Shown here piece after piece: positions 2,838-19,949 of a DNA stretch of 20,118 nt. The notes beneath the pieces were generated by a model. The model was not told the DNA's origin and made no database searches. It saw nothing but the letters and a program-made list of their open reading frames with translations. Position 1 is the first letter of the stretch, and each line of letters starts with the position of its first letter. The DNA is taken from positions 1-20,118 of the IMG/VR virus record IMGVR_UViG_3300027710_000176; one strand, written 5' to 3'. This DNA is from a virus. A program made the translations under genes and the position numbers.

Positions 2838-2886
2838 GATATAATTATTACATCAAACATCATGAAAGGACTACACGATTACATCA
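2838..2886. promoter_or_regulatory. Bipartite element before the GroES-like gene
   Basis: On the + strand GATATA (2838-2843), four bases, then TTACATCA (2848-2855). On the - strand this reads TGATGTAA-N4-TATATC. A second TTACATCA lies at 2879-2886, inside the first codons of the next gene, 31 bases (about three helical turns) downstream. The same pair of words occurs before four other transcription units in this window. No TAnnTTTG box is seen here. TATAAT at 2840-2845 overlaps the GATATA word but has no clear partner. This is probably a control region for the chaperonin-terminase genes. Confidence 0.5.
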
Positions 2887-3473
2887 TAGAAGTAAAAAAC
2901 AAGTTCAACGAAACCTTTAAAACTGAAGGTGGAGCAGAATTGTATTTGGACCAGCGATTTTCGGCTGAGAAGTTAGCAAATAGAATAGCCAAAGTGGTTA
3001 GTTGTCCGCTTTTAAAAGAAAGTGAGTTACAACCTGGATATGAGGTATTGATTGATCCAACTATTTTTTTTCAGCAGAAGTATGAAAAACACTCCATGAA
3101 TGATAATGGTTATTTGAAAGATGCTGAAAAAGGGTGGTATAAAATTCCTTCTGAAATGATTGTTTGTTACAGAGAAACCGAAAACGATTCATGGAAGGGA
3201 CATGCTGAGAATTTGTTGGTAGAATTTGTAAAAGAGGAAATAAAAACGCCCAAAATGAAATCTACATTAATTATCACAGAATCAAAACCAAAAGAATTCA
3301 CTAAGGGAATTGCCAGAGTAAAACACGCTAACAAAACCCTGATTGAAGACGAGAAAATAAAAGAAGGGGATATGATAGCGATTAAACATGAAGTAGGTAT
3401 TCCTTTCTACCTAGCAAAAACATTGTATTGGATTCGAAATCGGGATGTGTTGGCAGTAATAACTAAAAATTAA
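2862..3473 (+). CDS. GroES-like co-chaperonin (phage type, with insertion)
   Basis: A 203-residue protein whose C-terminal 75 residues follow GroES in order. A hydrophobic tripeptide LII (136-138), in STLIITES, sits where the mobile-loop IVL of GroES binds GroEL. Then come KEFTKGIARVKHA (145-156, like the GEVLAVG strand), KIKEGDMIAIK (165-175, like VKVGDIVIF) and WIRNRDVLAVI (190-200, like the final SESDILAIV strand). GYEVLIDP (59-66) could be the first GroES strand. Residues 67-130 would then be a long insertion, and 1-55 an extra helical N-terminus. GroES itself is about 97 residues. In phage T4, gp31 replaces GroES for folding of the capsid protein. A similar role here fits the location just upstream of the terminase, portal and capsid genes. 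The assignment rests on motif order read by eye, with no alignment score. Confidence 0.6.
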   Translation: MKGLHDYIIEVKNKFNETFKTEGGAELYLDQRFSAEKLANRIAKVVSCPLLKESELQPGYEVLIDPTIFFQQKYEKHSMNDNGYLKDAEKGWYKIPSEMIVCYRETENDSWKGHAENLLVEFVKEEIKTPKMKSTLIITESKPKEFTKGIARVKHANKTLIEDEKIKEGDMIAIKHEVGIPFYLAKTLYWIRNRDVLAVITKN

Positions 3474-3477
3474 GATC

Positions 3478-3825
3478 ATGCAAGACGGAAATGAAGTTAA
3501 AAAATACAGAAAAGAAAAAACATTAGAGCTTGTTGAAAAATACAAAGACTTAATCGATAAAACTTTTGAAATTTTAGATAAAGACTTGTTGCAAAACAAG
3601 ATTGATAGTGCGGATTCTGGCAATGAAGGTGGCAAAGAAACTGAAGAAAAATATCTTGAATCCATAAAAAAGAGAAGAATGTCGCTTGATGAAGTAGATG
3701 TTATGCTTGACAAGATAGAAAAATTGGAAGGCACTTTATTTAACAACAACCAAGATGGCGATGAAATCCAAACGACAACCTCATCAAATCCAACAAAAAG
3801 GTTTGCTAGAAAAGAACAAAAATGA
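3478..3825 (+). CDS. Small charged protein in the terminase small-subunit position
   Basis: A 115-residue, lysine- and glutamate-rich helical protein with a serine/threonine/asparagine-rich, basic C-terminus (TSSNPTKRFARKEQK). Helices are likely at about 5-40 and 52-90. It starts four bases after the GroES-like gene and overlaps the large terminase start by four bases (ATGA). That is the usual place of a small terminase subunit (TerS), which recognises phage DNA and forms a ring. However, no helix-turn-helix is evident, so the identification is positional only. An accessory packaging or scaffold-type protein is also possible. Confidence 0.45.
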   Translation: MQDGNEVKKYRKEKTLELVEKYKDLIDKTFEILDKDLLQNKIDSADSGNEGGKETEEKYLESIKKRRMSLDEVDVMLDKIEKLEGTLFNNNQDGDEIQTTTSSNPTKRFARKEQK

Positions 3826-6050
3826 TATACTACTTAGGAGATAAAGAAGAAAGCGTTGTTGACAAAAATGTGCGATTAGCTAAAAACAAAGCTAAGTCGT
3901 GGAAGTATGGCTACAATGAATCTATCGACACAGTTATTATCTCTAAAGATGGTACTCTTGGCGAAATTTATACTCTAAGCGGTATTAAAATAGGATTTCC
4001 GGAGAAACCAGCCGACAAAGAAATCGCCAATCATGGTAAAACGGCTCGAAACCAAAAATGGGTTAGAGAAGAGTTGCCTAAAGGTCTGAATATAGACACA
4101 ATGAATGAATCTCGATTTGCGGACTATATAGAACGTGAATTCGAAAGAAGAGATAAAGGGCATTGGATTTACATTAACGGCAAGTTAGTGTATATGACCG
4201 GCACATACTATTACGGAATACAATGGGTTAGAGAAGCAACCGATTATCCAGATTTCAGACAGATTCAAAATGAGTTAATGATTTTCTGGGAAGCATGTAA
4301 GGCTGACGAAAGATGTTTCGGGATGCAATATGTGAAAAACAGACGTATTGGAGCATCATTCTTAGCAATAGTAGAATTATTGGAAGCCGGAACCATTAAT
4401 GAAGACAAATTATTAGGAATAGTTTCTAAAAAAGGAGCCGATTCCAAGAAAATATTCAATAGGTTAATCAAAGGATTCAAAAGACTGCCATGTTTCTTTC
4501 AGCCATTATGGGATGGTACTACAACTCCTAAAAAAGAATTAATACTTGACGTTCCGACCAAAAGAAGAGCTAAAAATGAAGTAATCAGTGATGAAGGACT
4601 TGGTTCAGAAATCTCATGGCATAATACTGAGATTAATGCGATGGATGGAGACGCTATATTCCGTTCTCTTTTGGATGAATCTGGAAAATACCCGAAAGAA
4701 GTTCCGTTTGACGAATATTGGTACATTGTAAAGACCTCACACCTTAAAGGAGTAAAGATTACCGGTAAATCAATGGTGGTTTCCACTGTAAACGCGAAAA
4801 GCAAAGGTGGAGCCGGATATGAAACTGTTTGGAATGATAGTGATGTGACTGTACGCGATGGAAATGGTGAAACAAAATCAGGATTGTATCGAATATTTAT
4901 ACCAGCAGAACTTTGTTTGGAAGGTATGTTTGATGAATTCGGATTTACCGTTGTTGAAGATCCAATTGTTCTTGTGAAATGTGATGATGGGAAAACAAAA
5001 TCTTTCGGCTCAAAAACATACTTAAAAAATAAAGCAGAGTCACTTAAAAATGACCCAGAAAAACTAAACGAACATAAACGTCAGTTTCCAGATACTATTC
5101 GTGATGCTTTCCGCGACGAATCTGGAGAGTGTGCCTTTAATCAAATGAAGATTTTAGAGCAACAAGACCATAATGAATTTGATTTACACGATGATAAATA
5201 TGGAAACGATGAAGTAGAAAGAGGTAATTTCTCATGGGTTGATGGTATTCAAGATACTACGGTTAAATGGAATCCTGATCCTGAAAATGGCAGATTTTGG
5301 CTGTGTAAAAACTATCACCCTCCAGTAGATATGAGGAATATCCGTGAAATGAAAATGATTAACGGAGTCCTGGCTTTTGCCCCAGCAAACGAACATATCG
5401 GATGTTTTGGAGTCGATCCATATAACAGAAGTAAGACGGTAGATAGTAGAGGATCAAAAGGTTCAATCCATTTAAGTACAAAATACAACGCTGCTGGATT
5501 TCCAAACAACGCTTTCATTTTGGAATACATAGACAGACCAGCTACAGTAGAATTATTCTTTGAAGACGTACTTATGGCTATGGTTTATTTTAGTATTCCA
5601 ATGCTTGCTGAGTTATCAAATGAGAAGTTTTTGTCAATGATTAAAGATAGAGGTTATCGTCATTTCTCATTAAATAATCCGTTTAAAGCATACAAGGATT
5701 TATCGGACACCGAAAGAAAACTAGGAGGTGTGCCACCGCAAGATGCTAAAATTGGTGAGCAACAATTTTTTGCAACAGAAAGTTATATCCAAGACCATGT
5801 TGGTATCGCTCGTGATGGTTCGAAACGACCTGAAGGAGAAATGGGGTATATGCCATTCAATAGAACACTGGCTCAATGGAAAGAAGTTGACCCGACAAAC
5901 AGAACGAAATTCGATGCTTACATTAGTTCAAGTCTTTCATTATTAGGGAATCAGAAAAAATTAAAACCGGTAGAAGAATCAAAACCAATAGAATTATCAG
6001 CCGTTTTCGGAAGCTATGATAATAGTGGTAATTATTCTAAAGCCTTATGA
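3822..6050 (+). CDS. terL: Terminase large subunit (TerL)
   Basis: A 742-residue packaging motor protein with ATPase and nuclease halves. The Walker A-like motif is V171-K172-N-R-R-I-G-A-S179. It lacks the usual GK(S/T) lysine and has basic residues at its start instead, as in other terminases with displaced Walker A (lambda gpA KSARVGYSK). Walker B is S282-L-L-D285-E286, followed by motif III VVSTVN (319-324). In the C-terminal RNase H-like nuclease, GVDPYNRS (530-537) gives D532, MLAELSNE (594-601) gives E597 and RTKFDAYISSSLSLLG (694-709) gives D698, a plausible metal-binding triad. Residues 1-150 form an extra N-terminal region. TerL docks on the portal, drives DNA into the prohead and cuts the genome. 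The portal gene follows after a 74-base promoter region. The gene's stop codon (TGA) is part of a TGATGTAA regulatory word. Confidence 0.9.
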   Translation: MIYYLGDKEESVVDKNVRLAKNKAKSWKYGYNESIDTVIISKDGTLGEIYTLSGIKIGFPEKPADKEIANHGKTARNQKWVREELPKGLNIDTMNESRFADYIEREFERRDKGHWIYINGKLVYMTGTYYYGIQWVREATDYPDFRQIQNELMIFWEACKADERCFGMQYVKNRRIGASFLAIVELLEAGTINEDKLLGIVSKKGADSKKIFNRLIKGFKRLPCFFQPLWDGTTTPKKELILDVPTKRRAKNEVISDEGLGSEISWHNTEINAMDGDAIFRSLLDESGKYPKEVPFDEYWYIVKTSHLKGVKITGKSMVVSTVNAKSKGGAGYETVWNDSDVTVRDGNGETKSGLYRIFIPAELCLEGMFDEFGFTVVEDPIVLVKCDDGKTKSFGSKTYLKNKAESLKNDPEKLNEHKRQFPDTIRDAFRDESGECAFNQMKILEQQDHNEFDLHDDKYGNDEVERGNFSWVDGIQDTTVKWNPDPENGRFWLCKNYHPPVDMRNIREMKMINGVLAFAPANEHIGCFGVDPYNRSKTVDSRGSKGSIHLSTKYNAAGFPNNAFILEYIDRPATVELFFEDVLMAMVYFSIPMLAELSNEKFLSMIKDRGYRHFSLNNPFKAYKDLSDTERKLGGVPPQDAKIGEQQFFATESYIQDHVGIARDGSKRPEGEMGYMPFNRTLAQWKEVDPTNRTKFDAYISSSLSLLGNQKKLKPVEESKPIELSAVFGSYDNSGNYSKAL

Positions 6051-6076
6051 TGTAAATAATTATATCAATGATGTAA
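6048..6076. promoter_or_regulatory. Bipartite element, direct repeat, before the portal gene
   Basis: TGATGTAA occurs at 6048-6055 (overlapping the terL stop) and 6069-6076 in the same orientation, 21 bases apart (two helical turns). TATATC (6061-6066) lies between them. A -7 box begins eight bases after the second copy. It is likely a regulator binding site. Confidence 0.5.
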
Positions 6077-6098
6077 TTTTATTATATATTTGTTGTTA
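6062..6098 (+). promoter_or_regulatory. Promoter of the portal gene
   Basis: TATATTTG at 6085-6092 matches the Bacteroidota -7 box TAnnTTTG and is followed by the portal start 33 bases later. No TTTG is found where the -33 box should be (near 6060). Transcription may therefore depend on whatever binds the TGATGTAA/TATATC element there. Confidence 0.5.
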
Positions 6099-6124
6099 AA
6101 TTTTCAGTTTAAAAATACTGCCTT

Positions 6125-8536
6125 ATGACGATGATAAAATCAGTACAGGGAAATCCCGATACATTTGCCACTTTTGACGAAAAAAAGTCAGATGCTTACG
6201 GATTAAAAATCGGCCAACTTATAGGTTCCGAATGGTTTAATGGTGGTTTAATCTCCAGTGGTTGTGAATTTTTAAACAGAAGAGAATACGTCAGAAACAA
6301 ACGATTATTTGTTCGTGGCGAGCAAGATACCACTCAATATAAAACACATCAAAGTAGAGGGAGTAATGATCTTGATTTTTTTAATGTCGATTGGACTAAT
6401 ATCAATCTTGTTGAAAAATTTTGTAGAATTGTTTCAAATAATATTTCCGATGAAAATTACAGATTGGATATTAGAGCTACAGATAAACTTACTGTAAAAC
6501 TAAAAGAAGATAAAAAGGACCAGTATCGTAAAGATATTGCATCAATGCCGATGCTTAAAAATGCTAAACAGGCATTAGGTATAGATTTAATGCCGAAAGG
6601 TTTTATGCCGGAAGATGAAGAAGAAATGCGTTTGTTTTTAGAGATTAAAGACCGTCCTAAAGTAGAAATTTGCGAAGAGGTGTTAATCAACTACATCAAA
6701 AACACGAATGAATGGAAATTCATTGAAGGTCAAAACAACATCAATCTTGTAGATTTAGGATTAGCAGGAGTTCAAGTTTATACTGATAAAAACGACGGAA
6801 TAAAACTTAGATACATCGATCCTGAGCATTATGTTCACAGCTATGTAAATAGAAATGATTTTGCCGACAAATATTACGAAGGATTTGTAGACTCAATTAC
6901 AATTTCTGATTTAAGAAGGGAATCTGACTTCACTATTGAACAACTTCGTGAAATTGCTAAAACATATTCACTTTCAAATAATTCACCAACAATTGATTAT
7001 GAGAAATGTGCGATTGACTCTATTATAGACCACAAAGTAGACGTTCTTAGATTCGCTTGGAAAACCACTAAAACTTTAGTTTACAAAACAAAACTCAGAA
7101 ACGGAAAAGTTGTAAAAGCCACTAGAAAAAATGAATTATTCCAAGCGCCAAATAGAAGCGATGTAGGCCGTCTTGAAAAAACACTTGACACTTGGTTCGA
7201 AGGCAATCACGTTATTGGAACCAATGCTATTTACGGATATAGAGAATGTGAAAACTTAACTCGTGACGTAATGAATAAAGCAATGTCTCCATTCATATTC
7301 AGAGCTACAAATATCTACGAAAACAGACCTCAATCATTCCTTACAAAAATAGAGCCAATTGCAAATCAAATGCAAAACGCAGCATTAAAACTTCAGAACT
7401 TCATTGCGGAACTTCGTGGTGATATTGTAGAAATTGATGTTGATATGCTTGCTGAATTAGATAATGGTAAAGGAGGTTCAAAAAAACAAGTTTGGCAAAC
7501 GGCCATGTCTTTATTGAATGTAAAAAACATTGTCTTCCGAAAAAGAGTTGATATGGGAGAGCTTGGAATAAAAGAGAGCCGAGCTGTAACCGTAAGCCCT
7601 TCTGGAAGTGGAGGCCATATAGCTCAATTATTAAACGCTTGGGCCTTCTATTACAATTTAATTAGAGATATTACCGGAGTTAATCCGGCTGCCGACGGTT
7701 CGCTTCCTGCGGATGCTTTGTTAGGAGTAAACCAAATGAATCAATTAGCGTTCAATACTGCTACAAAACATATTGTTGAATCTGCAGTAGAATTGAATAG
7801 AAAAATATGTGAAGTTATTTCTACTAGAATACATGCCGTATTCAATGATCCAAAAGCTAAACATATCAAAGAAATTTATACAAGCGTAGTTGGTAAGCAT
7901 TTTATTGATGCTTTAGAAGTTTTAAAAGACAGACACCTTCACGAATTTGGATTTACTTTCGAAATGCTCCCTACAAATCAGGAGCTTCAGGAATTCAATG
8001 AAACATTGAATTTAGCAATGCAAGAAGGTACTATTAATCCAGAAGTTGTTATTGAAGCAAAAAGAATTGCTAAGGTCAATGTAAAACTAGCTATGGAATA
8101 CTTAATGTACCATAGACGAAAAATGATTAAACAACGCCAGGAAGAGCAAATGATGCTATCAAAAGATAAAAGCCAAAATGATTCAATGGCTGCACAAGCT
8201 AAAGTCAAAGCAGAAGTTGATGGATATGCTGCTAAAAAACAAGCTGATTTAGAGTACGCCAGAGGTTTAGCTGAAATTGATATTATGAAAGCTAAGAAGC
8301 TAAAAGAAATAAACGCTCCATTCGAAGATGCTGATTTCAAAAAGAAAGCTCATTTAGAAGAAATAAAAACAAATGGAAAGTTTGCTCTGGAAGATTACAA
8401 AGAAGGCAGAAAAGACGATAGACAAAATCTAAAAGACACAAACGAATCAAAGAAAATCAAGCAACGTCAAGAAAACGGCGATCCAATTGATTTCGAGGAA
8501 GATTACGATTTTGACGACATACTTAACGAGCAATAA
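6125..8536 (+). CDS. Portal protein
   Basis: An 803-residue protein directly after terL and before the scaffold and capsid genes, the standard place of the portal, the twelve-subunit ring through which DNA enters and leaves. Its length matches the large portals of P22-like and crAss-like podoviruses. Residues about 40-660 form the mixed alpha/beta core. DITGVNPAADGSLPADALLG (about 512-531), followed by a long helix, resembles the portal stem/wing region of related Bacteroidota phages. Residues about 655-790 are highly charged and helical (the crown or barrel), with coiled-coil composition. The last 18 residues are acidic (DFEEDYDFDDILNEQ). ATG 6125 is used here; Met3 (6131) is an alternative. 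A terminator follows immediately. Confidence 0.85.
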   Translation: MTMIKSVQGNPDTFATFDEKKSDAYGLKIGQLIGSEWFNGGLISSGCEFLNRREYVRNKRLFVRGEQDTTQYKTHQSRGSNDLDFFNVDWTNINLVEKFCRIVSNNISDENYRLDIRATDKLTVKLKEDKKDQYRKDIASMPMLKNAKQALGIDLMPKGFMPEDEEEMRLFLEIKDRPKVEICEEVLINYIKNTNEWKFIEGQNNINLVDLGLAGVQVYTDKNDGIKLRYIDPEHYVHSYVNRNDFADKYYEGFVDSITISDLRRESDFTIEQLREIAKTYSLSNNSPTIDYEKCAIDSIIDHKVDVLRFAWKTTKTLVYKTKLRNGKVVKATRKNELFQAPNRSDVGRLEKTLDTWFEGNHVIGTNAIYGYRECENLTRDVMNKAMSPFIFRATNIYENRPQSFLTKIEPIANQMQNAALKLQNFIAELRGDIVEIDVDMLAELDNGKGGSKKQVWQTAMSLLNVKNIVFRKRVDMGELGIKESRAVTVSPSGSGGHIAQLLNAWAFYYNLIRDITGVNPAADGSLPADALLGVNQMNQLAFNTATKHIVESAVELNRKICEVISTRIHAVFNDPKAKHIKEIYTSVVGKHFIDALEVLKDRHLHEFGFTFEMLPTNQELQEFNETLNLAMQEGTINPEVVIEAKRIAKVNVKLAMEYLMYHRRKMIKQRQEEQMMLSKDKSQNDSMAAQAKVKAEVDGYAAKKQADLEYARGLAEIDIMKAKKLKEINAPFEDADFKKKAHLEEIKTNGKFALEDYKEGRKDDRQNLKDTNESKKIKQRQENGDPIDFEEDYDFDDILNEQ

Positions 8537-8541
8537 ACTAG

Positions 8542-8569
8542 AAAGCCTGATTAATTTCAGGCTTTTTTT
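8542..8569 (+). terminator. Rho-independent terminator after the portal gene
   Basis: Stem AAAGCCTGA (8542-8550) pairs with TCAGGCTTT (8557-8565) around the loop TTAATT; T residues continue to 8569. It separates the portal unit from the scaffold-capsid unit, which has its own promoter. Confidence 0.9.
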
Positions 8570-8586
8570 ATAACATAAAGTTAGAA

Positions 8587-8616
8587 ATACATCAAAAAGA
8601 TATAAAAATTACATCA
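8587..8616. promoter_or_regulatory. Bipartite element before the scaffold-capsid operon
   Basis: In the orientation opposite to the portal copy: ATACATCA (8587-8594, one mismatch), AAAA, GATATA (8599-8604), AAAA, TTACATCA (8609-8616). On the - strand it reads TGATGTAA-N4-TATATC-N4-TGATGTAT, with the two half sites 22 bases apart. It is the most regular copy of the element in the window and ends four bases before the -33 box. Confidence 0.55.
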
Positions 8617-8620
8617 AAAA

Positions 8621-8653
8621 TTTGTTTATGATAGAATTTTTCAATTACATTTG
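8621..8653 (+). promoter_or_regulatory. Promoter of the scaffold-capsid operon
   Basis: TTTG (8621-8624) and TACATTTG (8646-8653) match the Bacteroidota -33 TTTG and -7 TAnnTTTG boxes with 21 bases between them. The start codon of the scaffold gene follows 28 bases later. It is the only promoter here with both boxes, which suits the strong expression that a capsid operon needs. Confidence 0.7.
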
Positions 8654-8680
8654 TATCTATAATCGATAAATTCTATTATT

Positions 8681-9868
8681 ATGGCTTTCGGGGAAGAATT
8701 TTTAGCAGACCAAACAGTACCACAAACCACTGATACTACACAAACTACTACTGAGACACAATCAGCTAGTACCGAACAATCAACTGAAGCGACCACCTCG
8801 ACTGAGACTGCTGCAACTGAAACGACAACTACAGAAGCTCAGGCTTCAACCGATACAACACAACAAACTCAAACTACTGAAACTGCTAACGCAGCCGAAG
8901 TTCCTGCTGGATTAAGTCCAGCTCAAATCTTAGAATACTTCGCTGCAAACGGTAGAACCGTTGAAGCTGTTGAAGATTTATTCAAAGAAAAAGAAGTTGT
9001 AAAAGAAGTGAATCCGTATGAAGGAGTACTGGATGATGAAGATAAACAGTATTTAGATTTCAAAAAAGAAACAGGCCGTGGCCGTAAAGAATTTGAATTC
9101 TTAAACCAAGATGTTGATAAAATGAATCCTATTGATTTAGCGAAAGCTCAAATTTTAAAGGAAACTGGATTAACACTATCTACCGAAAAAGCAATTGAAT
9201 ACCTAGAAGATAAATTTGATATTGATTTACAAACTGAGGAATTAAGTACTAAGGCACAAATCGAATTAAACAAATTTATCAAACCGGTAAAAGACGAATA
9301 CAGCTCATTAAAAGAGCAATACAAAAAACCAATTGAAAAGCCTCAGTCACAGCCACAAGAAGAAATGGTAACCCTTACCGATGGCTCTCTTATGAAAAAA
9401 GCTGAGTATGACCAATTAGTAATTAATCATCAAAAACATATTGAAGCTTCTAAGGCCTCGGTGAACAGCGTTACCGAAGCTAGTTTCAAGATGATGATTG
9501 ATGATAATGGAACGGAGAAGGAAGTATCGTATGGTTACGAATATTCACCAGAAGACAAGCAGAAAATGTTGTCAATCGTAAGTGATGTTGACGCAACCAT
9601 GGAAAGCCGATACCGTTCTGAGCAGGGATTTAACCACAAACAATTCGCAGAGGATTTATTTTGGAGCGATCCAGCAAACAGGGGAAAGGCAATACCTTCA
9701 ATGTTAGCTAAGGCGAGAGCTGAGGCTATAGCTGAGGTAATGCAAATACAGAACAACACGAACTTTGAAAGAAATTCTTTGCCCGGTCAAAAGGCAGGAG
9801 AAGGACAAAGAATAGTTTCTATTGGTCAAACTAACAACGGATTTGGGTTTGGAGAACAATTTAAGTAA
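8681..9868 (+). CDS. Head scaffolding-like protein
   Basis: A 395-residue acidic protein between portal and major capsid genes, where a scaffolding protein is expected; such proteins shape the prohead and leave before packaging. Residues 11-70 are almost entirely Thr, Glu, Gln, Ser and Ala, a disordered low-complexity tract. Residues 74-185 are helical and charged, including AQILEYFAANGR and YLDFKKETGRGRKEFEFLNQ, typical of scaffold-like proteins in Bacteroidota phages. Residues 200-260 are coiled-coil-like, and the C-terminus is glycine-rich. The protein begins with FGEEF (3-7) and ends with FGFGEQFK, an odd echo of the same word. No protease motif is seen. The gene shares a transcript with the capsid gene, 21 bases downstream. 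The role is inferred from position and composition. Confidence 0.6.
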   Translation: MAFGEEFLADQTVPQTTDTTQTTTETQSASTEQSTEATTSTETAATETTTTEAQASTDTTQQTQTTETANAAEVPAGLSPAQILEYFAANGRTVEAVEDLFKEKEVVKEVNPYEGVLDDEDKQYLDFKKETGRGRKEFEFLNQDVDKMNPIDLAKAQILKETGLTLSTEKAIEYLEDKFDIDLQTEELSTKAQIELNKFIKPVKDEYSSLKEQYKKPIEKPQSQPQEEMVTLTDGSLMKKAEYDQLVINHQKHIEASKASVNSVTEASFKMMIDDNGTEKEVSYGYEYSPEDKQKMLSIVSDVDATMESRYRSEQGFNHKQFAEDLFWSDPANRGKAIPSMLAKARAEAIAEVMQIQNNTNFERNSLPGQKAGEGQRIVSIGQTNNGFGFGEQFK

Positions 9869-9889
9869 AAACTTTAAAACCTAGAACAA

Positions 9890-11251
9890 ATGGCTTTTGA
9901 TTTAAGAACCAACAACCTCTCCGGTATTGCGATTATTGACCAACCCGGAGGTGTAGCGGCGACACAAGAGAATTTTATCTCTACTTACGATTACGCTACA
10001 CAATATCAACCAGAATTAGTACCTCAATTGCATTACGCAAACGGATTGGGGAGAATTACTGAATTCTTAAAATTCGCTTCAAAAGAAGACTCGTATGCTT
10101 CTGACCAAGTAGAACACATGGAATTACGCAGATTACACAACATTTTGAAAAATGTAGCTGTAGTAGGCGCGACATTTACTTCTCCAACAGCTCACAATTT
10201 GAGAGCAGGGGATGTTATTAAAATTTCTGATGGAGTTATCGAAGCGCAAGCTGAAGTAGCATCTATTACTTCTGCAACTGTTTTCGTTGTAACTAACGAT
10301 TTAGGTGCTGGAGCTTTTGGTTTCGCAGGAAACGTAGATGTTATGGCCGATTTCTCTAGTAGATTCCAAAAAGGATCTGATCCTTTCGCTACTGGTAAAA
10401 ACTGGAACCCAACACCTAAGTACAATTACACTCACATCATCAAGGAAACTTATGATATTTCTGAGAGTAATATGGCACACAAAAATTGGGTAATGACTCC
10501 TTTTGGCCCGCGTTGGTTTAACGCTGAAATGGAGCGTACAGGAACTTTATTCGATAATAAAGCTGAATTAACTACAATTCTACACAATAGAGTTGCTGCT
10601 GGGTCTGCTTCTGCAGTTGCAGGAAAAGCACTTGGTATGAAAGGAGTTGTACAGCAAATCGAAGAAGATGGAAACGTAATCAATGATTACATTACTACTG
10701 TAGACAACCTTTCTGCAATTGCGTTCCGCGCAAAACAACAAGGAAACTGTCGTGAATTTACTGTATGGGCTGACCACAAACAAATGGCTTACTTCCGCGT
10801 ATTATGTGCTGGGGTTAATGCTTCTTTTGTGAACGGCGCACACTACGGAATTTTTAGCAACTCAAAAGATATGGCATTGAAATTAGATTTCTCTTCTATC
10901 TTGGTTGATGGTGTTACTTTCCACTTCACGCCTTGGAGATTATTAGATGATCCTACAATGTTAGGTTCGACTAAATTCTTATTGACTGCGCCAGCTTTCA
11001 TCATCTTACCAACAGGTATGACAGATGTTTATGAAAACGGAAACGCTGCGTCTAAACCATACTTATCATTACGTTACAGACGTGACGGTAATGTAGATAG
11101 AAAACGTCAAGTTAAAATTTTCGGTTTAGGTGGTACTCCACAAAAAGCGGATAAAATGACTGCGAATTTCTTATCTGAAATGACCAATCAGTTAATTGGA
11201 GCTAACTGCTACTTCGTAGGACGTAGAGGCGCTGCATATTACACTGCATAA
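9890..11251 (+). CDS. Major capsid protein (HK97-fold type)
   Basis: A 453-residue protein downstream of portal and scaffold genes, followed by a strong terminator. Its sequence has the run GSDPFATGKNWNPTPKYNY (162-180) with HIIKETYDISESN (182-194), a region I associate with major capsid proteins of crAss-like and related Bacteroidota podoviruses. Residues about 88-152 form a beta-rich module with HNLRAGDVIKIS (102-113) and VASITSATVFVV (123-134), probably an insertion on the capsid surface. The C-terminal part, with LTAPAFIILPTG and RYRRDGNVDRKRQVKIFGLGG, fits the HK97 axial/peripheral beta elements. Each capsid needs hundreds of copies, which matches the two-box promoter upstream of the operon. 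No N-terminal delta-domain cleavage site is evident. Confidence 0.8.
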   Translation: MAFDLRTNNLSGIAIIDQPGGVAATQENFISTYDYATQYQPELVPQLHYANGLGRITEFLKFASKEDSYASDQVEHMELRRLHNILKNVAVVGATFTSPTAHNLRAGDVIKISDGVIEAQAEVASITSATVFVVTNDLGAGAFGFAGNVDVMADFSSRFQKGSDPFATGKNWNPTPKYNYTHIIKETYDISESNMAHKNWVMTPFGPRWFNAEMERTGTLFDNKAELTTILHNRVAAGSASAVAGKALGMKGVVQQIEEDGNVINDYITTVDNLSAIAFRAKQQGNCREFTVWADHKQMAYFRVLCAGVNASFVNGAHYGIFSNSKDMALKLDFSSILVDGVTFHFTPWRLLDDPTMLGSTKFLLTAPAFIILPTGMTDVYENGNAASKPYLSLRYRRDGNVDRKRQVKIFGLGGTPQKADKMTANFLSEMTNQLIGANCYFVGRRGAAYYTA

Positions 11252-11260
11252 TAATTAACA

Positions 11261-11293
11261 AAAGGGAGAGCGAAAAATCTCTCCCTTTTTTTT
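11261..11293 (+). terminator. Rho-independent terminator after the capsid gene
   Basis: Ten-base-pair stem AAAGGGAGAG (11261-11270) with CTCTCCCTTT (11279-11288), loop of eight bases, T run to 11293. The next gene starts only 24 bases further with no visible promoter. The terminator is therefore probably leaky and lowers expression of that gene relative to the capsid protein. Confidence 0.9.
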
Positions 11294-11316
11294 ATTCACT
11301 TAAAAAAAATAACAAA

Positions 11317-12336: not shown

Positions 12337-12381
12337 AAATACCATTTTCGTTTTGGTGCGAACTTTTCCCGAAGCTCGAAG

Positions 12382-12408
12382 AAAAACCCTCTTAATTGAG
12401 GGTTTTTT
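12382..12408 (+). terminator. Rho-independent terminator before the neck-tail operon
   Basis: Stem AAAAACCCTC (12382-12391) pairs with GAGGGTTTTT (12398-12407) around the loop TTAATT, the same loop as in the terminator after the portal gene. A T run follows to 12408. Confidence 0.9.
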
Positions 12409-12425
12409 GTTTATAGTATAATAGT

Positions 12426-12466
12426 TATATCTATTTGATGTAAAAAAATACTCAAAAATTACATCG
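12426..12466. promoter_or_regulatory. Bipartite element before the neck-tail operon
   Basis: TATATC (12426-12431), four bases, TGATGTAA (12436-12443), then TTACATCG (12459-12466, one mismatch) in the opposite orientation. The last two form an inverted repeat with centres 23 bases apart. It ends 15 bases before the -7 box. Confidence 0.5.
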
Positions 12467-12474
12467 ATTGTGTT

Positions 12475-12490
12475 TTATTTATATCTTTGT
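12475..12490 (+). promoter_or_regulatory. Promoter of the neck-tail operon
   Basis: TATCTTTG (12482-12489) matches TAnnTTTG; the first start codon is 23 bases further on. The 16-base word TTATTTATATCTTTGT (12475-12490) recurs exactly at 19934-19949, before the ejection-like gene. No TTTG is seen at -33. Confidence 0.65.
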
Positions 12491-12511
12491 TACTATCAAA
12501 TAATTATAGTC

Positions 12512-13216
12512 ATGGTAAGTATTGATTTAGTTTATAAAACCTGCTTAGTATTAGCCAATTCGGACATTCGCGGTAACGTAACTCCTGCGGATTTAAGATT
12601 GATTATAAACAACGTGGTAAATGAAATTTACGAAGAGTATTTGTTCGTAGTAAATCAAATGACTAATCGTGAGAATAGAGGTTTGATGAATGGTGGTTTA
12701 GAGAACATGCCGGATAAGATTCGCGAAAAAATTCAATATTTCCTTCAAGACGCACCAGCAACATTTGTTACTACATTATTCCAATTGCCTTCGGATTTAA
12801 GATATTTTGATAGTGTTTATTTTAACGACACAACTGAAATCAAACCGACAAAAAACGCTAGAGAATTTAAGTTAGTTGGAAATTTTGTTCACACAAAACC
12901 TACTGAGGAATATCCTATATACTTAAAGCAAGGAACCACTATTAAAGTATTACCTACAACTATTCAAGATAATGTGACTGTTTTTTATTTAAGAAATCCA
13001 CTTATCGCAAAATGGACTTACACGGTTGTGTCTGGAGCAGAATTATTCAATCCTTCTGCTTTAGATTTTCAAGACATTGACTTACACCCAAGCGAGGAGG
13101 TTAATGTTATTTTAAGAACGCTACACAAATTCGGTATTAATCTTAAAGAACAAGAAATTGTGGCTATTACTCAGAACATGAAAACACAAGATTTTAACCA
13201 AGATAACGCTAGTTAA
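12512..13216 (+). CDS. Neck/ring-like head-tail connector protein
   Basis: The start is taken as ATG 12512 (MVSIDLVYKTC), giving 234 residues. The frame extends upstream to GTG 12470, but that would place the promoter inside the gene. The N-terminal 55 residues are helical (ADLRLIINNVVNEIYEEYLFVVNQ). There follows LPSDLRYFDSVYF, a beta-rich middle, and a C-terminal helix with HPSEEVNVILRTLHKFGINL (the stretch starting near residue 190) that I associate with neck proteins of crAss-like and similar Bacteroidota phages. The gene is first in the operon, two bases before a second neck-like gene, and follows the head genes. It probably forms a ring between portal and tail. Identification is by general pattern and gene order. 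Confidence 0.6.
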   Translation: MVSIDLVYKTCLVLANSDIRGNVTPADLRLIINNVVNEIYEEYLFVVNQMTNRENRGLMNGGLENMPDKIREKIQYFLQDAPATFVTTLFQLPSDLRYFDSVYFNDTTEIKPTKNAREFKLVGNFVHTKPTEEYPIYLKQGTTIKVLPTTIQDNVTVFYLRNPLIAKWTYTVVSGAELFNPSALDFQDIDLHPSEEVNVILRTLHKFGINLKEQEIVAITQNMKTQDFNQDNAS

Positions 13217-13218
13217 TT

Positions 13219-14067
13219 ATGGCTATTGTAACTCCAGAAGCATATTATTCAGACGAAGATAACCATGGCAATTACCAATGGGTCACACTGAAAGACATTA
13301 TCGATGCGCTAGAAATGGAAGCATTGGACGATGATAGTTATTTAAAAAACACGGACCGGTTCCGCTTTTTATACCATGCTAAAATGGCTATCAAAGATGT
13401 AACGAAAAGCGCAGCAAATCAGGTCGCTTCAATTGAAATGACTGTACCTGGAAGCTTAGTACTACCTCTCATGCAAGATTACGTTGAATACTCGATGGTA
13501 TGTGTTGTTGAGGTTGATAATGTTACTGGAAGTAAAAGACTTCAACCTTTAGATATTAATGAAAACATTAATATTTCAATTGGTTATCTACAAGATAGCA
13601 ACGGTGATATTTTATTTGATGATGATGGCTATATTATAACTTCTGATGGAGACAATGCCTACGGAGTTCCTTATAAAAAATACCAATTCACTGAAGCTGG
13701 AGGACAGTCAAGACTTGATACTTCAAAATTAAGTGAATACGGTGAATTTATCATTGATAAAAACAGAGGTAAAATTTTATTTAGTTCTGAATTATCGGAT
13801 AAAGAAGTTGTCATTTTCTACGTTTCAGACGGTTTACAAGCAGGAATTACAGAAAGCCAAATAAAAGTTCACAAATATCTTGAACAAACGATTAAGGACT
13901 GGGTTTACTATGCTTGTGTCGCTCCAAGACGAAATGTTCCTGGAAACGAAAAGAAACGCGCATTAGATCGTCATAAAACAACATTACACCAAGCTAAGTT
14001 AGACTTATCTGACTTAAATATTTTACAAATAGCGAGAATGGTTCGCTCTAAATCAATGATACTGTAA
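13219..14067 (+). CDS. Second neck/ring-like connector protein
   Basis: A 282-residue protein. WVTLKDIIDALEMEA (21-35), AKMAIKDVTKSAANQ (54-68), a beta strand, then LPLMQDYVEYSMVCVV (82-97) gives the helix-helix-LPxDYVxY layout common in Bacteroidota phage connector proteins. The C-terminal helices (IKVHKYLEQTIKDWVYYACV, then RHKTTLHQAKLDLSDLNI) would pack in a ring. The middle carries a variable Asp-rich insertion (residues 124-148). It starts two bases after the preceding gene and its stop shares one base with the start of the tail gene, so the three are made together. Likely role: connecting portal and tail tube. The exact ring position is unknown. Confidence 0.55.
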   Translation: MAIVTPEAYYSDEDNHGNYQWVTLKDIIDALEMEALDDDSYLKNTDRFRFLYHAKMAIKDVTKSAANQVASIEMTVPGSLVLPLMQDYVEYSMVCVVEVDNVTGSKRLQPLDINENINISIGYLQDSNGDILFDDDGYIITSDGDNAYGVPYKKYQFTEAGGQSRLDTSKLSEYGEFIIDKNRGKILFSSELSDKEVVIFYVSDGLQAGITESQIKVHKYLEQTIKDWVYYACVAPRRNVPGNEKKRALDRHKTTLHQAKLDLSDLNILQIARMVRSKSMIL

Positions 14068-17000
14068 TGGGAGTAGTTAGAAATGATTTTTTAACAGGTA
14101 AAATGGATCGTGATACGGATGAACGTATCGTAAAAGGGTATCGTCATGCCGAAAATGTCTTGATTATAAATTCTGAAGGTTCCGATGTGGGTTCTGTACA
14201 AAATTCATATTCAAACAAAAAACTAACCAATTACGATTTTGGAGAAAATGCAAAGTGCGGATTAGGTTTTGCTGATGAAAAGAACGATAAAATTTATTGG
14301 TTCGTAATTTCCGACAACGGTTGTTATTTAGTAGAATGGGATCATATAAACGAGATTCTTTCAATTGTATTAGGAGATACCAGAGTTGGTTCCGCTAGAG
14401 TTCTTGATTTAAAAGAATCAAACCTAATTACTGGTATTGAAAAAATAATCAGTGAAGACGGTGAAAATGACATGCTGGGATGGTGTGATGACAATATAGA
14501 GCCATGCTGCATAAACATTGAACGCGCTAAAACATACGGTATTAATGGTTTCGAAAAAGAAGATATTTACCTTATTAAAAAACCGCCGGTTTATCCTCCT
14601 ACTGTGGAGCCTGTTTTAAGTAATTCAGGTTCAAATAACATAGAAGAGAAGTTCCCATTATTCGCCTACAGATGGCGTTATTTAGATGGGGAGTATTCTG
14701 CGTTATCATCATTTAGTAATTACTTTTTTTATCCTAAAGAATTTAAAATGAATTATGCTGCTTCTGAAAACAGTGGCATGGTTAATATTTACAACTCAGC
14801 AAGAATTGGGTTCAACACTGGGGATAAAAGAGTTGTAGAGATTCAGGTTATAGTAAAGCAAAGTCTTTCTAATAATCTTTATGTAATTGAAACTTTCAAT
14901 AAAGCCAATTTAGCTTACGGTGACAACCAAATGAAGTATGTGAATTTTTCAAACGATAAAATTCACAAAATACTTGCTGAGAAAGAATTATACAGGACTT
15001 TTGATAACGTGCCTAGATTAGCTAAAGCAATGTGCTTAATAGGTAATCGATTTGTGTTTGGAAATTATGTAGATGGGTACGATTTAATTGACAGAAACGG
15101 AACTCAAATCAATTTTGATTACAATGTGTATTTAAAATCAATACCATTTGATAATCCCCAAATATTTTTTGCTGAAATAAACGAAAATGAGGTTACTTTT
15201 TCTAATCCAGATAATATTCTGCTTAAAAAAGGAAATAAGCTTACGTTATTTATAAATATTTTACTTGAAAACAACACTTTAGTTTTCAACGACACGTTTT
15301 ATTACATATTGCCGGATGATTACGCTACGTTAGACGATGCGTTTGCTACAGATGAATTTCAAAATTTCTTTGATATTATCAAATTAATATTTGCAAATAA
15401 CTATACTTACGACTATGACCCAAACTGGGTTGTTGAAATTCCTCCAGTGTTATCACTTGATTTGTCTGGTCCTAATTTAAGATTTATTGTATCTCCAGTA
15501 ACATACAAAGATACCACAGATGATTCACTTCATGTGGTTGATTTTGTGTTTGAAACTACTACATTAGGATTAACAGAAATAACCAATAACACCTCTTATA
15601 AATCAAATAGAGATTATACGGTAGGGTTTATTTACAAAGATCGTTTTGGAAGAGAAACTACGGTTTTAAATGCTATTGACAACACCATTTACATCCCACA
15701 AAAATATTCAACTTATCTGAATAAAATAGGGATTAAAATTAACCATTACCCTCCGGAGTGGGCTGAAACATATAAAATTTCCATAAAAAGCAAGCAACTG
15801 TCTTATCATGTGGTTTACATAAACAAATTCTACAATGAAGATGATTTTGTGTGGGCGAAACTTGAAGGAGATAATAAACAAAAAGTAAAAGAAGGCGATG
15901 TGTTGATTTTAAAGAAATCAGCCATAGGAACAGAACCTTTTATTAAAAAAGTAAAGGTTTTAGAAATAAAAGAAAAACTAAAAGACTTTTTAGAAGGCAA
16001 TAACGATGCCAATGGTAATCCGCTTATAGAAGAGGCTGGATTGTATATGAAAATACGACCAGAAGGCTTCTCTATGGACTTAGATGATTACAGAGTCTAT
16101 ACAAGCGATGCTTATAAAGGCACTACATCTGGGACACCTACTGTTTACTTGGATTTGTTTTCAACTGAAAACGACACACCTCCTCCTGCTTTCTTGGACT
16201 TAGCAATTCCTTTAGGTAGCGAAATAGATTTATCTTTTTCGAATAGTAGAGAATACGATAGTGGATGGAAGCAAACAGGCGTTTCAAACAGATACTATGC
16301 ACAGCGTAATTATAATAATCTTGAAGATTTTTTCAATGAAATAGTTTTAAATCGTCCTTTATTCAGTAATACTGGTAACGATTCTCAAAATTGGGAAGAC
16401 AAGATTAGTATTGGAAGATATGTTATAACTGATTCCGGCGCTCCGTTTCATTTTAAAACATATACTGAAGATCCTAATGGCCAATATTTATTAAAAATTG
16501 ATGGGTTTTATCAAGGTAGAGACGATAGTGGTTTCGGAAATGGCAAATCTTCCAGATTAAATGCTAAAATTACAATCAGAACTAATGCTGGATTTTTTGC
16601 TTTTGAAACTGAAGAGGTAGATTATGAAAATGAACTTTACTTTCAAACAGAGCAAACATTTGATATTGTTGACGGCTATCACCAAGGTAATATTACTAAT
16701 CAAGATGCTGTAACAAACGGAGAAATATTATTAAACTCATTCAACTGTTTTTCTTTTGGAAACGGAGTGGAAAGCTACATCATAAAAGACGCTTTTAATA
16801 AAAATAAACTTCATATTGATTCAAGACCTTCATCTACATCTATTGAAAGATATAAGGAAATAAGAAGGTATGCCGATTTAACTTACGGAGAAGGTTTTAT
16901 TGAAAGCACTAATGTTAATGGGTTAAATGAATTTAACCTATCAACGGCTAATTACAAAGAGCTTGATAAGCAATACGGAAGTATTCAAAAATTAGTAAGT

Positions 17001-18755
17001 AGAGACGGAGACATTGTTGTTTTTCAGGAAGAGAAAACATCTAAAGTAATGTTCGGTAAAGATGCTCTTTATAATGGAGACGGAACCGCAAATGTGACTT
17101 CTATACCAGAAGTATTGGGGCAGCAAGTTTTTTATTTAGGAGAAAATGGAATTGGGAAAAATCCTGAAAGCGTAGGTATAAATGATTACCAAATTTTCTA
17201 TACAAACGCTTTGAGGGGAATAGTTCAAAGACTTTCTATTGATGGAGTTACTGATATTGTAAATGGACTTACTGATTATTTTAGAGACTTGTTTATTTTA
17301 AAACCAAGATCTAAAAAAATTGGAGCTTTCGACCCATACCACAAACAGTTCTTTATTTCAGTAGGAGAAGAGCCAGTGCGTCAATATTTATTGAAATGTG
17401 GCAACACTATTTCAAGAACAGACCAAACAACTTCTTTCTCGTATAACTTACAATTAAATGATTTAGAGGGAGACATTGTTCTTAACTATAATGCAACTTT
17501 AGGAAATATCACAATAACAGCCATACATGATGGCGATATTTCTGTTGCTTCAAATGTTACAGGAATTGGGAATATAACTATTCCTAGAACTAATTTAGCG
17601 GATAACAATGTAAATGTTACCATTACTCCGGTTTCTTCAATTGTTAGTTATGAAATTTCAAACGTTTGTCCTATTGGATTGCCGTTAGAAATAATAAGTA
17701 TTGTTGTAAATGACGAAACGGATTTAGGGTTAACCATAAAAAATAGATATAAATGGGGTTCCAGTCCTTATTATTATACAGAAGATAGTGTTTTTGACGA
17801 TGAAGAATTAAGTTTTTTTAGTTCTGAAATTGGGACAGAAGGTATTGGTAAGTTCCCTAGAAGCGGAAATATTGTAAACATACAATCTTACAAAGACAGT
17901 GAAAGCACTGCTAATTTTACACCTGCAGAGGAAAATAGACTAGGTTATTTAGTTACAGAAGATGTTTATACAGAATTGGATATAGAAACGATTTTAAGTT
18001 TAGCTACTTTTATTTCTACAACTGAAGAGATTGAAGGGTTGACAAATATTAAAAATCACGGAAATTTCCTTTTCACCAGAACATTACCTGGAGAGAAATT
18101 GTATTTAATTTGGGATTATACAAATAAAATACCTCCGGTAGCTGTTGACGACACTATGACACTTGCAAAAGGAGCAACTGCGATCAAGAATGTTTTATTA
18201 AATGATACTGTAAATAGCGACACGGCAATAATTACGATAACAACTCCTCCTGTAAATGGAACCGCTTCAGTTACTTTGTCAAACACTATTCAATACGAGC
18301 ATGATGATTCAGCAACAACTACTGATTCATTAGTTTATGAATTAGATAATGGATATGGAACAGATACCGCAACACTAGATATTACAATATTGGAAGAGCC
18401 TATTGCCTCGTTTATTACTCAATTAGCGGAAGTTGTTGATGGGTGTAGTTCTGAATGGCAAATAGAAATTACTCCTGACCAAAATGTTACAGTTGATATT
18501 TACCAAACATTTGAATCAGTAGGAATGTGGAAAGATATAACCACTATTTACCCAAGTACTACAATCGTAGAAACGGTTATGTTATACGACCCAATATCTT
18601 CTGGTAATACTAAAAAATATGCTTTTGGAATTGACGCTGCCAGCTTTGGAATTGACCCATACACAAGTTATATTACAGTGGACATTAAAGATATTGATAA
18701 TGAACTAATAGAAACTATGAATTTTTATAGAGTTCATAACAATGCTAATTGCTAA
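14067..18755 (+). CDS. Very large tail protein (stabilization/tube type) with Ig-like domains
   Basis: A 1562-residue protein. The N-terminus (DFLTGKMDRDTDERIVKGYR, 7-26, then NSEGSDVGSVQN) and the segment at about 939-1070 (NGLNEFNLS, GSIQKLVSRDGDIVVFQEEK, then LGENGIGKNPESVG) are of the kind seen in large tail stabilization or tubular proteins of crAss-like phages, which play the role of P22 gp10. About 1120-1205 is a beta-rich, Asn/Thr/Ile-rich Ig-like segment. Residues 1356-1441 (PPVAVDDTMTLAKGA, VLLNDT, TTPPVNGTASV, DSLVYELDNGYGTDTATLDI) closely follow the VCBS/Big_9 cadherin-like repeats of Bacteroidota surface adhesins. The last 120 residues hold a further beta domain with cysteines at 1453 and 1562. 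The C-terminal domains may bind the cell surface or other virion proteins. It forms one operon with its neighbours. Confidence 0.7.
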   Translation: MGVVRNDFLTGKMDRDTDERIVKGYRHAENVLIINSEGSDVGSVQNSYSNKKLTNYDFGENAKCGLGFADEKNDKIYWFVISDNGCYLVEWDHINEILSIVLGDTRVGSARVLDLKESNLITGIEKIISEDGENDMLGWCDDNIEPCCINIERAKTYGINGFEKEDIYLIKKPPVYPPTVEPVLSNSGSNNIEEKFPLFAYRWRYLDGEYSALSSFSNYFFYPKEFKMNYAASENSGMVNIYNSARIGFNTGDKRVVEIQVIVKQSLSNNLYVIETFNKANLAYGDNQMKYVNFSNDKIHKILAEKELYRTFDNVPRLAKAMCLIGNRFVFGNYVDGYDLIDRNGTQINFDYNVYLKSIPFDNPQIFFAEINENEVTFSNPDNILLKKGNKLTLFINILLENNTLVFNDTFYYILPDDYATLDDAFATDEFQNFFDIIKLIFANNYTYDYDPNWVVEIPPVLSLDLSGPNLRFIVSPVTYKDTTDDSLHVVDFVFETTTLGLTEITNNTSYKSNRDYTVGFIYKDRFGRETTVLNAIDNTIYIPQKYSTYLNKIGIKINHYPPEWAETYKISIKSKQLSYHVVYINKFYNEDDFVWAKLEGDNKQKVKEGDVLILKKSAIGTEPFIKKVKVLEIKEKLKDFLEGNNDANGNPLIEEAGLYMKIRPEGFSMDLDDYRVYTSDAYKGTTSGTPTVYLDLFSTENDTPPPAFLDLAIPLGSEIDLSFSNSREYDSGWKQTGVSNRYYAQRNYNNLEDFFNEIVLNRPLFSNTGNDSQNWEDKISIGRYVITDSGAPFHFKTYTEDPNGQYLLKIDGFYQGRDDSGFGNGKSSRLNAKITIRTNAGFFAFETEEVDYENELYFQTEQTFDIVDGYHQGNITNQDAVTNGEILLNSFNCFSFGNGVESYIIKDAFNKNKLHIDSRPSSTSIERYKEIRRYADLTYGEGFIESTNVNGLNEFNLSTANYKELDKQYGSIQKLVSRDGDIVVFQEEKTSKVMFGKDALYNGDGTANVTSIPEVLGQQVFYLGENGIGKNPESVGINDYQIFYTNALRGIVQRLSIDGVTDIVNGLTDYFRDLFILKPRSKKIGAFDPYHKQFFISVGEEPVRQYLLKCGNTISRTDQTTSFSYNLQLNDLEGDIVLNYNATLGNITITAIHDGDISVASNVTGIGNITIPRTNLADNNVNVTITPVSSIVSYEISNVCPIGLPLEIISIVVNDETDLGLTIKNRYKWGSSPYYYTEDSVFDDEELSFFSSEIGTEGIGKFPRSGNIVNIQSYKDSESTANFTPAEENRLGYLVTEDVYTELDIETILSLATFISTTEEIEGLTNIKNHGNFLFTRTLPGEKLYLIWDYTNKIPPVAVDDTMTLAKGATAIKNVLLNDTVNSDTAIITITTPPVNGTASVTLSNTIQYEHDDSATTTDSLVYELDNGYGTDTATLDITILEEPIASFITQLAEVVDGCSSEWQIEITPDQNVTVDIYQTFESVGMWKDITTIYPSTTIVETVMLYDPISSGNTKKYAFGIDAASFGIDPYTSYITVDIKDIDNELIETMNFYRVHNNANC

Positions 18756-18776
18756 TTAAAACAAAGCAAGACTAAA

Positions 18777-19502
18777 ATGAGTGAGACAATATCATATAAC
18801 GACAAAGTAAACGGATGGACTTCGTTCCATTCGTTTATTCCAGATTGGATGGTAAAACTTAACAACCGTTTTTTTTCAATAAAAGATGGTCAATTGTGGC
18901 TGCATAATGACGAGACAAATCCAATTCGAAATAATTTCTATGGGGTTCAATATAATTCAAAAATTACTCCAGTAATTAATGAAGCTAATTCCGAGGACAA
19001 AATTTTCAAAACATTAGCTTTAGAAAGCACTCACCCTTGGAAGGCTACAATAAAAACCAACTACACTGAAAGCACAATTGAGCCTGCTGAATTCAACAAG
19101 AGAGAAAGTCGATTTTTCTCCTATATAAGAAAGAATGAGGATCAAAATGACCTTCATGGTTCTACAGCGCAAGGAATAGGTGTGGTGTTATCGACTACTG
19201 GATTTACAATTACTTTCGCCATGCTTGACAACACTATTAGTATTGGTGATAAGTTGTTTCAGGTAAATGGTTTAGTTAATGAAGAAATTGGGGTCATTTC
19301 TTTGATTAATGACGGTGTTATTACAGTTACGACTGTAGTTACTACCCCAATAAACGGATTATTCTGCTACGCTACTAAAAACGCTAGAATTGAAGGGTCT
19401 GAAATACGTGGGTACTATGCAGAAATTGAATTAGAAAATGCCGATACGGAAGTGGTAGAACTATTTGCTATTGAAAGTAATATTGTGAAAAGTTATGTTT
19501 AA
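18777..19502 (+). CDS. Tail protein, GWTSFHSF type
   Basis: A 241-residue protein. Residues 5-90 (ISYNDKVNGWTSFHSFIPDW, then LNNRFFSIKDGQLWLHN, NNFYG, KIFKTLALES) form a beta-rich region that in related phages I recall as the C-terminal part of the large tail protein; here it is a separate gene 21 bases after that protein. Residues 103-120 (PAEFNKRESRFFSYIRKN) continue it. Residues 140-200 form a small beta module (ISIGDKLFQVNG, GVISLINDGVITVTTVV) resembling the insertion in the major capsid protein. No signal peptide or transmembrane segment. It probably packs on the tail tube or hub. The next gene overlaps its end by eight bases. Confidence 0.6.
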   Translation: MSETISYNDKVNGWTSFHSFIPDWMVKLNNRFFSIKDGQLWLHNDETNPIRNNFYGVQYNSKITPVINEANSEDKIFKTLALESTHPWKATIKTNYTESTIEPAEFNKRESRFFSYIRKNEDQNDLHGSTAQGIGVVLSTTGFTITFAMLDNTISIGDKLFQVNGLVNEEIGVISLINDGVITVTTVVTTPINGLFCYATKNARIEGSEIRGYYAEIELENADTEVVELFAIESNIVKSYV

Positions 19503-19896
19503 CGTAAGAATACTTTACGATACTGATTATAACGCTTTAGTTGGGTGGTGGAAATTTTGGCGCTTCCCAGCTCCTCCAAAAGACTACCTTCCGGAAAACG
19601 GATGTGGTGGAATAATGGTTTCAAAAGACGGCATAAACATTTGTGCTGGATTCTTATTTTTAAACAATTCTAAAATTGCCTGGCTTGAATTCGTAATTTC
19701 CAATCCTGAGTATCGTGAAAACGATAGAAAAGAGGCTATTGAATATTTAATTACGGTATTGTGTGACTTAGCAAAAAACAAAGGATATAAAGCTGTTTTT
19801 ACCTCATTAAAAAACGAGAATTTAATAAATAGATACGAAGCTGCAGGGTTTACAAAAAGCCCACACAAGACAACTGAAATGGTTATTTCATTATGA
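19495..19896 (+). CDS. GNAT acetyltransferase-like protein
   Basis: A 133-residue protein with the order of the GNAT fold. GGIMVSKDGINICAGFLFL (38-56) gives beta2-beta3, KIAWLEFVIS (60-69) beta4, the acceptor loop 70-79, helix EAIEYLITVLCDLAKNKGYK (80-99), strand AVFTSLKN (100-107) and NLINRYEAAGFTKS (109-122) motif B. The acetyl-CoA pyrophosphate loop (usually RxxGxG/A) is replaced by R-E-N-D-R-K-E-A (74-81), with no glycine, so the enzyme may be inactive or may bind something else. The same kind of small gene occurs beside tail genes in other podoviruses. The substrate is unknown. It overlaps the tail protein gene by eight bases and ends the operon. Its TGA stop is part of a TGATGTAA word. 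Confidence 0.65.
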   Translation: MFNVRILYDTDYNALVGWWKFWRFPAPPKDYLPENGCGGIMVSKDGINICAGFLFLNNSKIAWLEFVISNPEYRENDRKEAIEYLITVLCDLAKNKGYKAVFTSLKNENLINRYEAAGFTKSPHKTTEMVISL

Positions 19897-19924
19897 TGTA
19901 ATTAATTGATGTAAAAAGTATATC
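19894..19924. promoter_or_regulatory. Bipartite element before the ejection-like gene
   Basis: TGATGTAA at 19894-19901 (overlapping the stop of the GNAT-like gene) and again at 19907-19914, then four bases and TATATC (19919-19924). The two copies are 13 bases apart, unlike the 21-23 base spacing elsewhere. The -7 box begins 16 bases after TATATC. Confidence 0.5.
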
Positions 19925-19933
19925 AGATTACAA

Positions 19934-19949
19934 TTATTTATATCTTTGT
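19934..19949 (+). promoter_or_regulatory. Promoter of the ejection-like gene
   Basis: TATCTTTG (19941-19948) matches TAnnTTTG. The 16-base word around it is identical to that at 12475-12490. No -33 TTTG is present. The TTG start at 19993 lies 45 bases downstream. Confidence 0.65.

Follow-up and report, generated by a model that had tools for sequence, protein, structure and literature searches.

Phased repeats at late promoters of a marine phage are probably operator arrays for a phage-encoded regulator

The DNA that we analyzed (the window) is a virus record of 20,118 bases carrying the genes for packaging and for the virion of a tailed phage, a marine bacterial virus. Five gene-start regions in it bear clustered copies of a short word, TGATGTAA, and many related phages bear words of their own at the same late promoters. 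On the sequence evidence, these arrays are very likely bound by a regulator of late genes. The fuller reading, which we favor with some reserve, is that they are operator arrays for a late regulator encoded by the phage, that this protein likely activates transcription together with the host sigma-A RNA polymerase, and that a protein of the family PHROG_17028 is the best candidate for it.

On the plus strand, the window carries a groES-like gene (2862-3473; PHROG_13932), which is the first gene of the terminase operon, followed by the genes for the terminase large subunit (3822-6050; PHROG_6681) and the portal (6125-8536; PHROG_6547), a scaffold-position gene (8681-9868; PHROG_16786) and a gene for a virion structural protein (12512-13216; PHROG_14543). 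PHROG_16786 has no function assigned, and both this gene and the one after it, which encodes a virion structural protein at the major capsid position (9890-11251; PHROG_13704), are named by position. The phage collection held no close DNA match to the window. Its terminase is 58% identical to those of the Cellulophaga phages phi18:3, phi46:3, phi19:3 and phi13:2, and the closest IMG/VR contig is L001, with a TerL identity of 79%.

An unbiased count of all 8-mers ranked TGATGTAA first among the intergenic words, with 7 copies found and 0.07 expected (Poisson p 1.3e-12). The window holds eight exact copies, five on the plus strand (6048, 6069, 12436, 19894 and 19907) and three on the minus strand (2848, 2879 and 8609), and 7 of the 8 are intergenic. 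An earlier note on this DNA had listed these eight positions and one-mismatch copies at 8587 and 12459, all of them correctly; there is no other exact copy in the 20,118 bases, and the only one within a gene is that at 2879-2886, as the note had said. Over the whole window, words with one mismatch were only mildly enriched (40 vs. 29.8 expected), and thus the signal is positional.

The same note had described a bipartite element, in which TATATC or GATATA lies 2-5 bases from a copy of the word at all five loci. The spacing was confirmed, whereas the two-part description had to be given up, since TATATC is not independent: at all five loci it is part of an inverted half-site in which G5 is changed to A (T/A/G-GATATAA). 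There is a single half-site motif; the alignment of 15 half-sites gives TGATRTAA, in which GAT and TA never vary. These half-sites stack about 11 bp apart in alternating orientation, so that adjacent opposite-strand pairs form pseudo-palindromes (TGATGTAA-N3-TTATATC). Only six opposite-strand pairs at 10-12 bp occur in the whole window, all at the five loci (2837/2848, 6048/6060, 8587/8598/8609, 12425/12436 and 19907/19918), a count that is descriptive because the matrix was made from these very sites.

At the portal promoter, the array (6048-6076) consists of half-sites at 6048 (+), 6060 (-, TTATATCA) and 6069 (+), with centres at -33, -21 and -12 from the TAnnTTTG of the -7 box TATATTTG (6085-6092, +). 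The scaffold/major capsid promoter has half-sites at 8587 (-), 8598 (+, AGATATAA) and 8609 (-), spaced 11 and 11 bp (array 8587-8616), followed by a -33 TTTG at 8621-8624 (+), the only one found adjoining an array, and by the -7 box TACATTTG (8646-8653, +). For the gene starting at 12512, half-sites at 12425 (-), 12436 (+) and 12459 (-) make up the array (12425-12466) and the -7 box is TATCTTTG (12482-12489, +). The same box, TATCTTTG (19941-19948, +), lies downstream of the last array (19894-19925; half-sites 19894 (+), 19907 (+) and 19918 (-)), which belongs to the next virion gene, an orthologue of G016 26003-26680. The box of the host -7 class is therefore kept at four of the five loci (6085, 8646, 12482 and 19941), and a -33 TTTG is present only at the 8646 promoter; the earlier note had reported the same counts. 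By its position, the phage word would take the -35/-33 place in 3 of these 4 promoters, and the 8587-8616 array lies upstream of the TTTG that is kept.

The fifth locus, at the groES-like gene, is the one with no -7 box. Its array (2837-2855) has half-sites at 2837 (+, GGATATAA) and 2848 (-, TTACATCA), 11 bp from each other, and adjoins the ATG at 2862, with no TAnnTTTG in between. The extra exact half-site in the first codons of the gene (2879-2886, -), 31 bp from 2848, may be there by chance. Either the array works differently at this gene or the start is at another place. An array abutting the groES-like start codon without a -7 box was also seen in several relatives (L001-L005, L017 and L025); that of L025 (G011) consists of three copies of AGTGTAGTAAA with an exact 11-bp period and a single orientation.

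Other elements were noticed around these promoters. Terminator-like hairpins with T-runs lie between virion genes at 11262-11296 and 12387-12407, the latter directly upstream of an array promoter. A second element, ATAGAT-N3/4-ATCTAT, is kept across phages with differing array words (promoters of L012, L035, L036 and L052); it lies directly upstream of the -7 box, is often repeated in the leader just before the ATG, and is degenerate in the window (8634-8680). It is possibly a second operator or a leader hairpin.

By the terms of the earlier note, its reading would fail if related phages lacked the word in front of these genes. Taken literally, the word is absent: TGATGTAA was missing between the genes in nearly all of the 58 related loci, L001 among them, and a search of IMG/VR for the window's own array returned only four unrelated contigs. 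When the same promoters were read in the relatives, different repeated words stood in that place, in several relatives in the same layout, and for this reason the absence of TGATGTAA does not refute the reading. We rebuilt 14 related records from pieces and determined for each, independently of TGATGTAA, which 8-mer ranked first between genes. Many relatives had their own lineage-specific word at the same late promoters (TAGTATAA, ATATAAAT, AACATAAA, GATATATT and others), and the top words were largely intergenic (11 of 13 copies for TAGTATAA, 13 of 16 for ATATAAAT, 17 of 24 for AACATAAA and 8 of 8 for TAATAGTA). Clear, mostly intergenic words were found in G002, G004, G012, G013, G016 and G018, weaker ones in G010, G005 and G017, and none in several other rebuilt records. 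Among the genomes fetched later, G023 (TTAGTATA, 10 of 11 intergenic) and G024 (TATATAAA, 12 of 16) had such words, G021 and G022 had no clear word, and G019 was led by unrelated words. When words were swapped between phages, the resulting matrix was almost diagonal, that is, each word is specific to its phage.

The arrays stand at orthologous genes across phages: the GroES-like gene, the scaffold gene, the 12512 gene and the virion gene after 19,900, and in addition PHROG_17028 with the divergent late operon, and a 104-aa gene. A stricter test was confined to late promoters; in a z-score version of it terminator hairpins prevailed, and that version was given up. The best word beat all 60 shuffles in 4 of 20 phages and nearly did so in 4 more, and 12 phages failed. 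In about half of the relatives the arrays do not reach significance.

The spacing of the sites was analyzed in eight phages. In relatives, successive sites switch strand, at intervals of 9 and 13 or of 11 and 11 bases. Pairs on opposite strands 9-13 bp apart were found 33 times (6.7 expected; maximum of 16 in 1000 simulations) and same-strand pairs at 20-24 bp 22 times (6.0 expected; maximum of 15 in 1000 simulations), and the out-of-phase class at 14-18 bp showed no enrichment (9 observed vs. 12.4 expected). The excess came chiefly from G002, G004 and G013, with support from G000; the test was weak or negative in G018, G012, G016 and G010, and also in G023, G024 and G019 of the new set. The arrays also keep register with the -7 box, their centres lying at about -11, -22, -33, -44 and -55 from the first T of TAnnTTTG (Rayleigh test at 11 bp, p 0.0014, n = 25 promoters with one vote each). 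The earlier note was thus right that orientation and distance to the -7 box vary, but the distances vary in steps of whole helical turns. As it had proposed, a regulator that binds DNA at multiple sites and controls late genes agrees better with the data than a fixed core-promoter element; that part of its interpretation is supported, and we infer, as it did, that the regulator is an activator, and we also infer which protein it is.

We propose the following mechanism. The words would be half-sites of operator arrays for a phage-encoded regulator of late (virion) genes, and an opposite-strand pair with centres about 11 bp apart would make a pseudo-palindrome of about 19 bp for one dimer. Two to three half-sites would share a face of the helix, near -23, -34 and -45; at the scaffold promoter, which keeps its -33 TTTG, they would lie one to two turns further upstream. 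The regulator would most likely substitute for a -33 contact that is weak or missing, and recruit the host sigma-A RNA polymerase, which would provide the -7 contact at TAnnTTTG; late genes would turn on as the regulator builds up. Across the phage group, regulon and spacing would be kept while the half-site sequence varies by lineage. That the regulator activates is, in our judgment, fairly likely; the array that abuts the groES-like ATG without a -7 box is a poor fit to simple activation.

PHROG_17028 was picked among the clusters common to all seven near-complete relatives. The protein (about 190-220 aa) is present in 7 of 7, and its gene, which is not within the window, often has arrays upstream; it diverges from the late operon, and in many phages the shared gap contains an array or promoter elements. 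A search against Pfam gave nothing above the cut-off and a weak winged-helix hint (HTH_27, E 0.23, in one member). In the AlphaFold model (pLDDT 79) the helices, the helix-turn-helix and the wing follow the MarR topology. Nearly all of the top 50 Foldseek matches to the model were MarR-type (best E 2.9e-3, probability 1.00), some of them DNA-bound structures, and the VIA Z to 2a61 was 8.0 (99 residues, rmsd 3.0), although a Z of 8 alone is not decisive. A MarR-type winged-helix fold is thus predicted from the model, and the DNA pattern TGATGTAA-N3-TTATATC would suit a dimer of such a protein. Within its core, the family is most variable in the recognition helix (2.3 bits) and the wing (2.2 bits), compared with 1.3 bits in helices 1-2; this is expected if specificity shifts, although residues on the surface tend to vary more in any protein.

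By tblastn, PHROG_17028 was found only in the Cellulophaga phages phi13:2, 18:3, 19:3 and 46:3. A profile search found distant homologues, both annotated as hypothetical, in Elemovirus elemoE (NC_055854.1 23838-24368, Flavobacterium elemo phages, adjoining groEL/groES) and in Cellulophaga phage phi38:1 (NC_021796.1 41497-41946, gp078), and the late-regulator family is possibly wider than this phage group. The promoters of elemoE and phi38:1 showed no visible arrays. Because distant homologues occur in these phages without arrays, co-occurrence does not identify the protein, and we withdrew it as evidence. In elemoE (L138), the top intergenic words, TATCTTTG and ATCTTTGC, are an extended -7 box (TATCTTTGCAAA), which suggests a different late-promoter design in Elemovirus. 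A small HTH_17 protein was set aside as the regulator since it is missing from 1 of the 7 near-complete relatives. A conserved 104-aa protein (A3) also has arrays upstream and bears no DNA-binding signature. PHROG_17028 is our leading candidate, at somewhat short of even chances.

The best-surviving alternative, which we consider unlikely, is that the arrays serve a repressor or a timing switch as its operators: the protein would cover the -33 region (and the leader at groES) and keep late genes off until it is lost. MarR proteins are mostly repressors (PMC9692554), sites that overlap -33 or abut the groES ATG would suit blocking, and the presumed regulator gene has an array of its own. However, most arrayed promoters have no -33 TTTG and so seem weak without help, even if -33 is poorly conserved in F. 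johnsoniae anyway, and most of the sites are found upstream of the -7 box, keeping register with it through as many as four turns, which looks more like the placement of an activator.

Alternatively, a phage sigma factor or a phage RNA polymerase could itself read the words as a core-promoter element, as the position of the words next to gene starts and the groES array with no -7 box before the ATG would allow. We regard this as improbable, given that the copies are multiple, that orientation and distance vary in whole turns and that the host -7 box is retained at 4 of the 5 loci. Searches for sigma-70 regions 2 and 4 (PF08281, PF04542) were negative in all nine relatives with positive controls, which counts against a phage sigma factor; a search for a phage RNA polymerase with PF00940 was uninformative, as no control gave a match.

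Slightly less probable again is that the words are ordinary AT-rich promoter tracts in helical phase or chance occurrences in AT-rich intergenic DNA. Host promoters do carry AT-rich motifs one turn and two turns upstream of the -7 box, in F. johnsoniae at -18 and -28 (PMC6847099), and therefore part of the register could be general for AT-only words; words are AT-only in several relatives, and many relatives fail the strict test. But TGATGTAA contains a G and its intergenic count far exceeds expectation, and the word is phage-specific, whereas a general AT tract would not vary by lineage. The least probable reading is that the arrays are packaging or replication sites, such as repeated binding sites of the terminase small subunit, for which one array heads the terminase operon and repeated phased sites suit ring-shaped small terminase subunits, but the arrays occur at five or more promoters, phased with the -7 box, and, in relatives, at the regulator gene and other genes as well.

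If the arrays are indeed operators of a late regulator, the variation between phages suggests that the switch protein is made by the virus and that its DNA code changes quickly between virus lineages. We put forward tentatively a stronger form, in which one orthologous regulator, PHROG_17028, kept its regulon and the phased layout while it and all of its operators switched recognition code several times; the late-gene switches of close relatives could then be blind to one another. It has long been asked how a regulator changes specificity jointly with all its sites, and this phage group provides one switch in several natural versions, with the same genes and geometry, a candidate protein and readable operators. 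A literature search found no mapped promoters for these marine flavobacterial phages, and the arrays would give the first regulatory code for their late genes.

Mu Mor/C and the lambda-type late regulators are single regulators that switch a set of late promoters, as proposed here, and their folds are expected to differ from that of our candidate. Host Bacteroidota sigma-A promoters consist of a -33 TTTG and a -7 TAnnTTTG (PMC6847099). The promoters in the window resemble them in having the -7 box at the expected place at 4 of 5 loci, and differ in that the upstream part is a phage-specific array and that the -33 TTTG is missing at 3 of 4. A precedent for the protein class of PHROG_17028, as we read it, is the cyanophage pMarR, a MarR-type phage protein that is reported to activate and to have several binding sites (PMC9692554), although pMarR acts on a host gene promoter, without a described phased array or phage late regulon. 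In the middle promoters of phage T4, the MotA box replaces the -35 element and the host -10 is kept, which is known as sigma appropriation (PMC2988021). MotA is a monomer on a single site 12 bp from the -10, at middle genes and with AsiA as a partner, whereas here two to three half-sites of alternating orientation lie at late genes, at distances that vary by whole turns, and no counterpart of AsiA is known. In both systems an element of the host -10 class is kept; here a phage-specific word would, by its position at 3 of 4 promoters, take the place of the -35, and here too a phage DNA-binding protein would be read beside sigma. The mechanism that we propose thus appears close in logic to that of the MotA box of T4 middle promoters.
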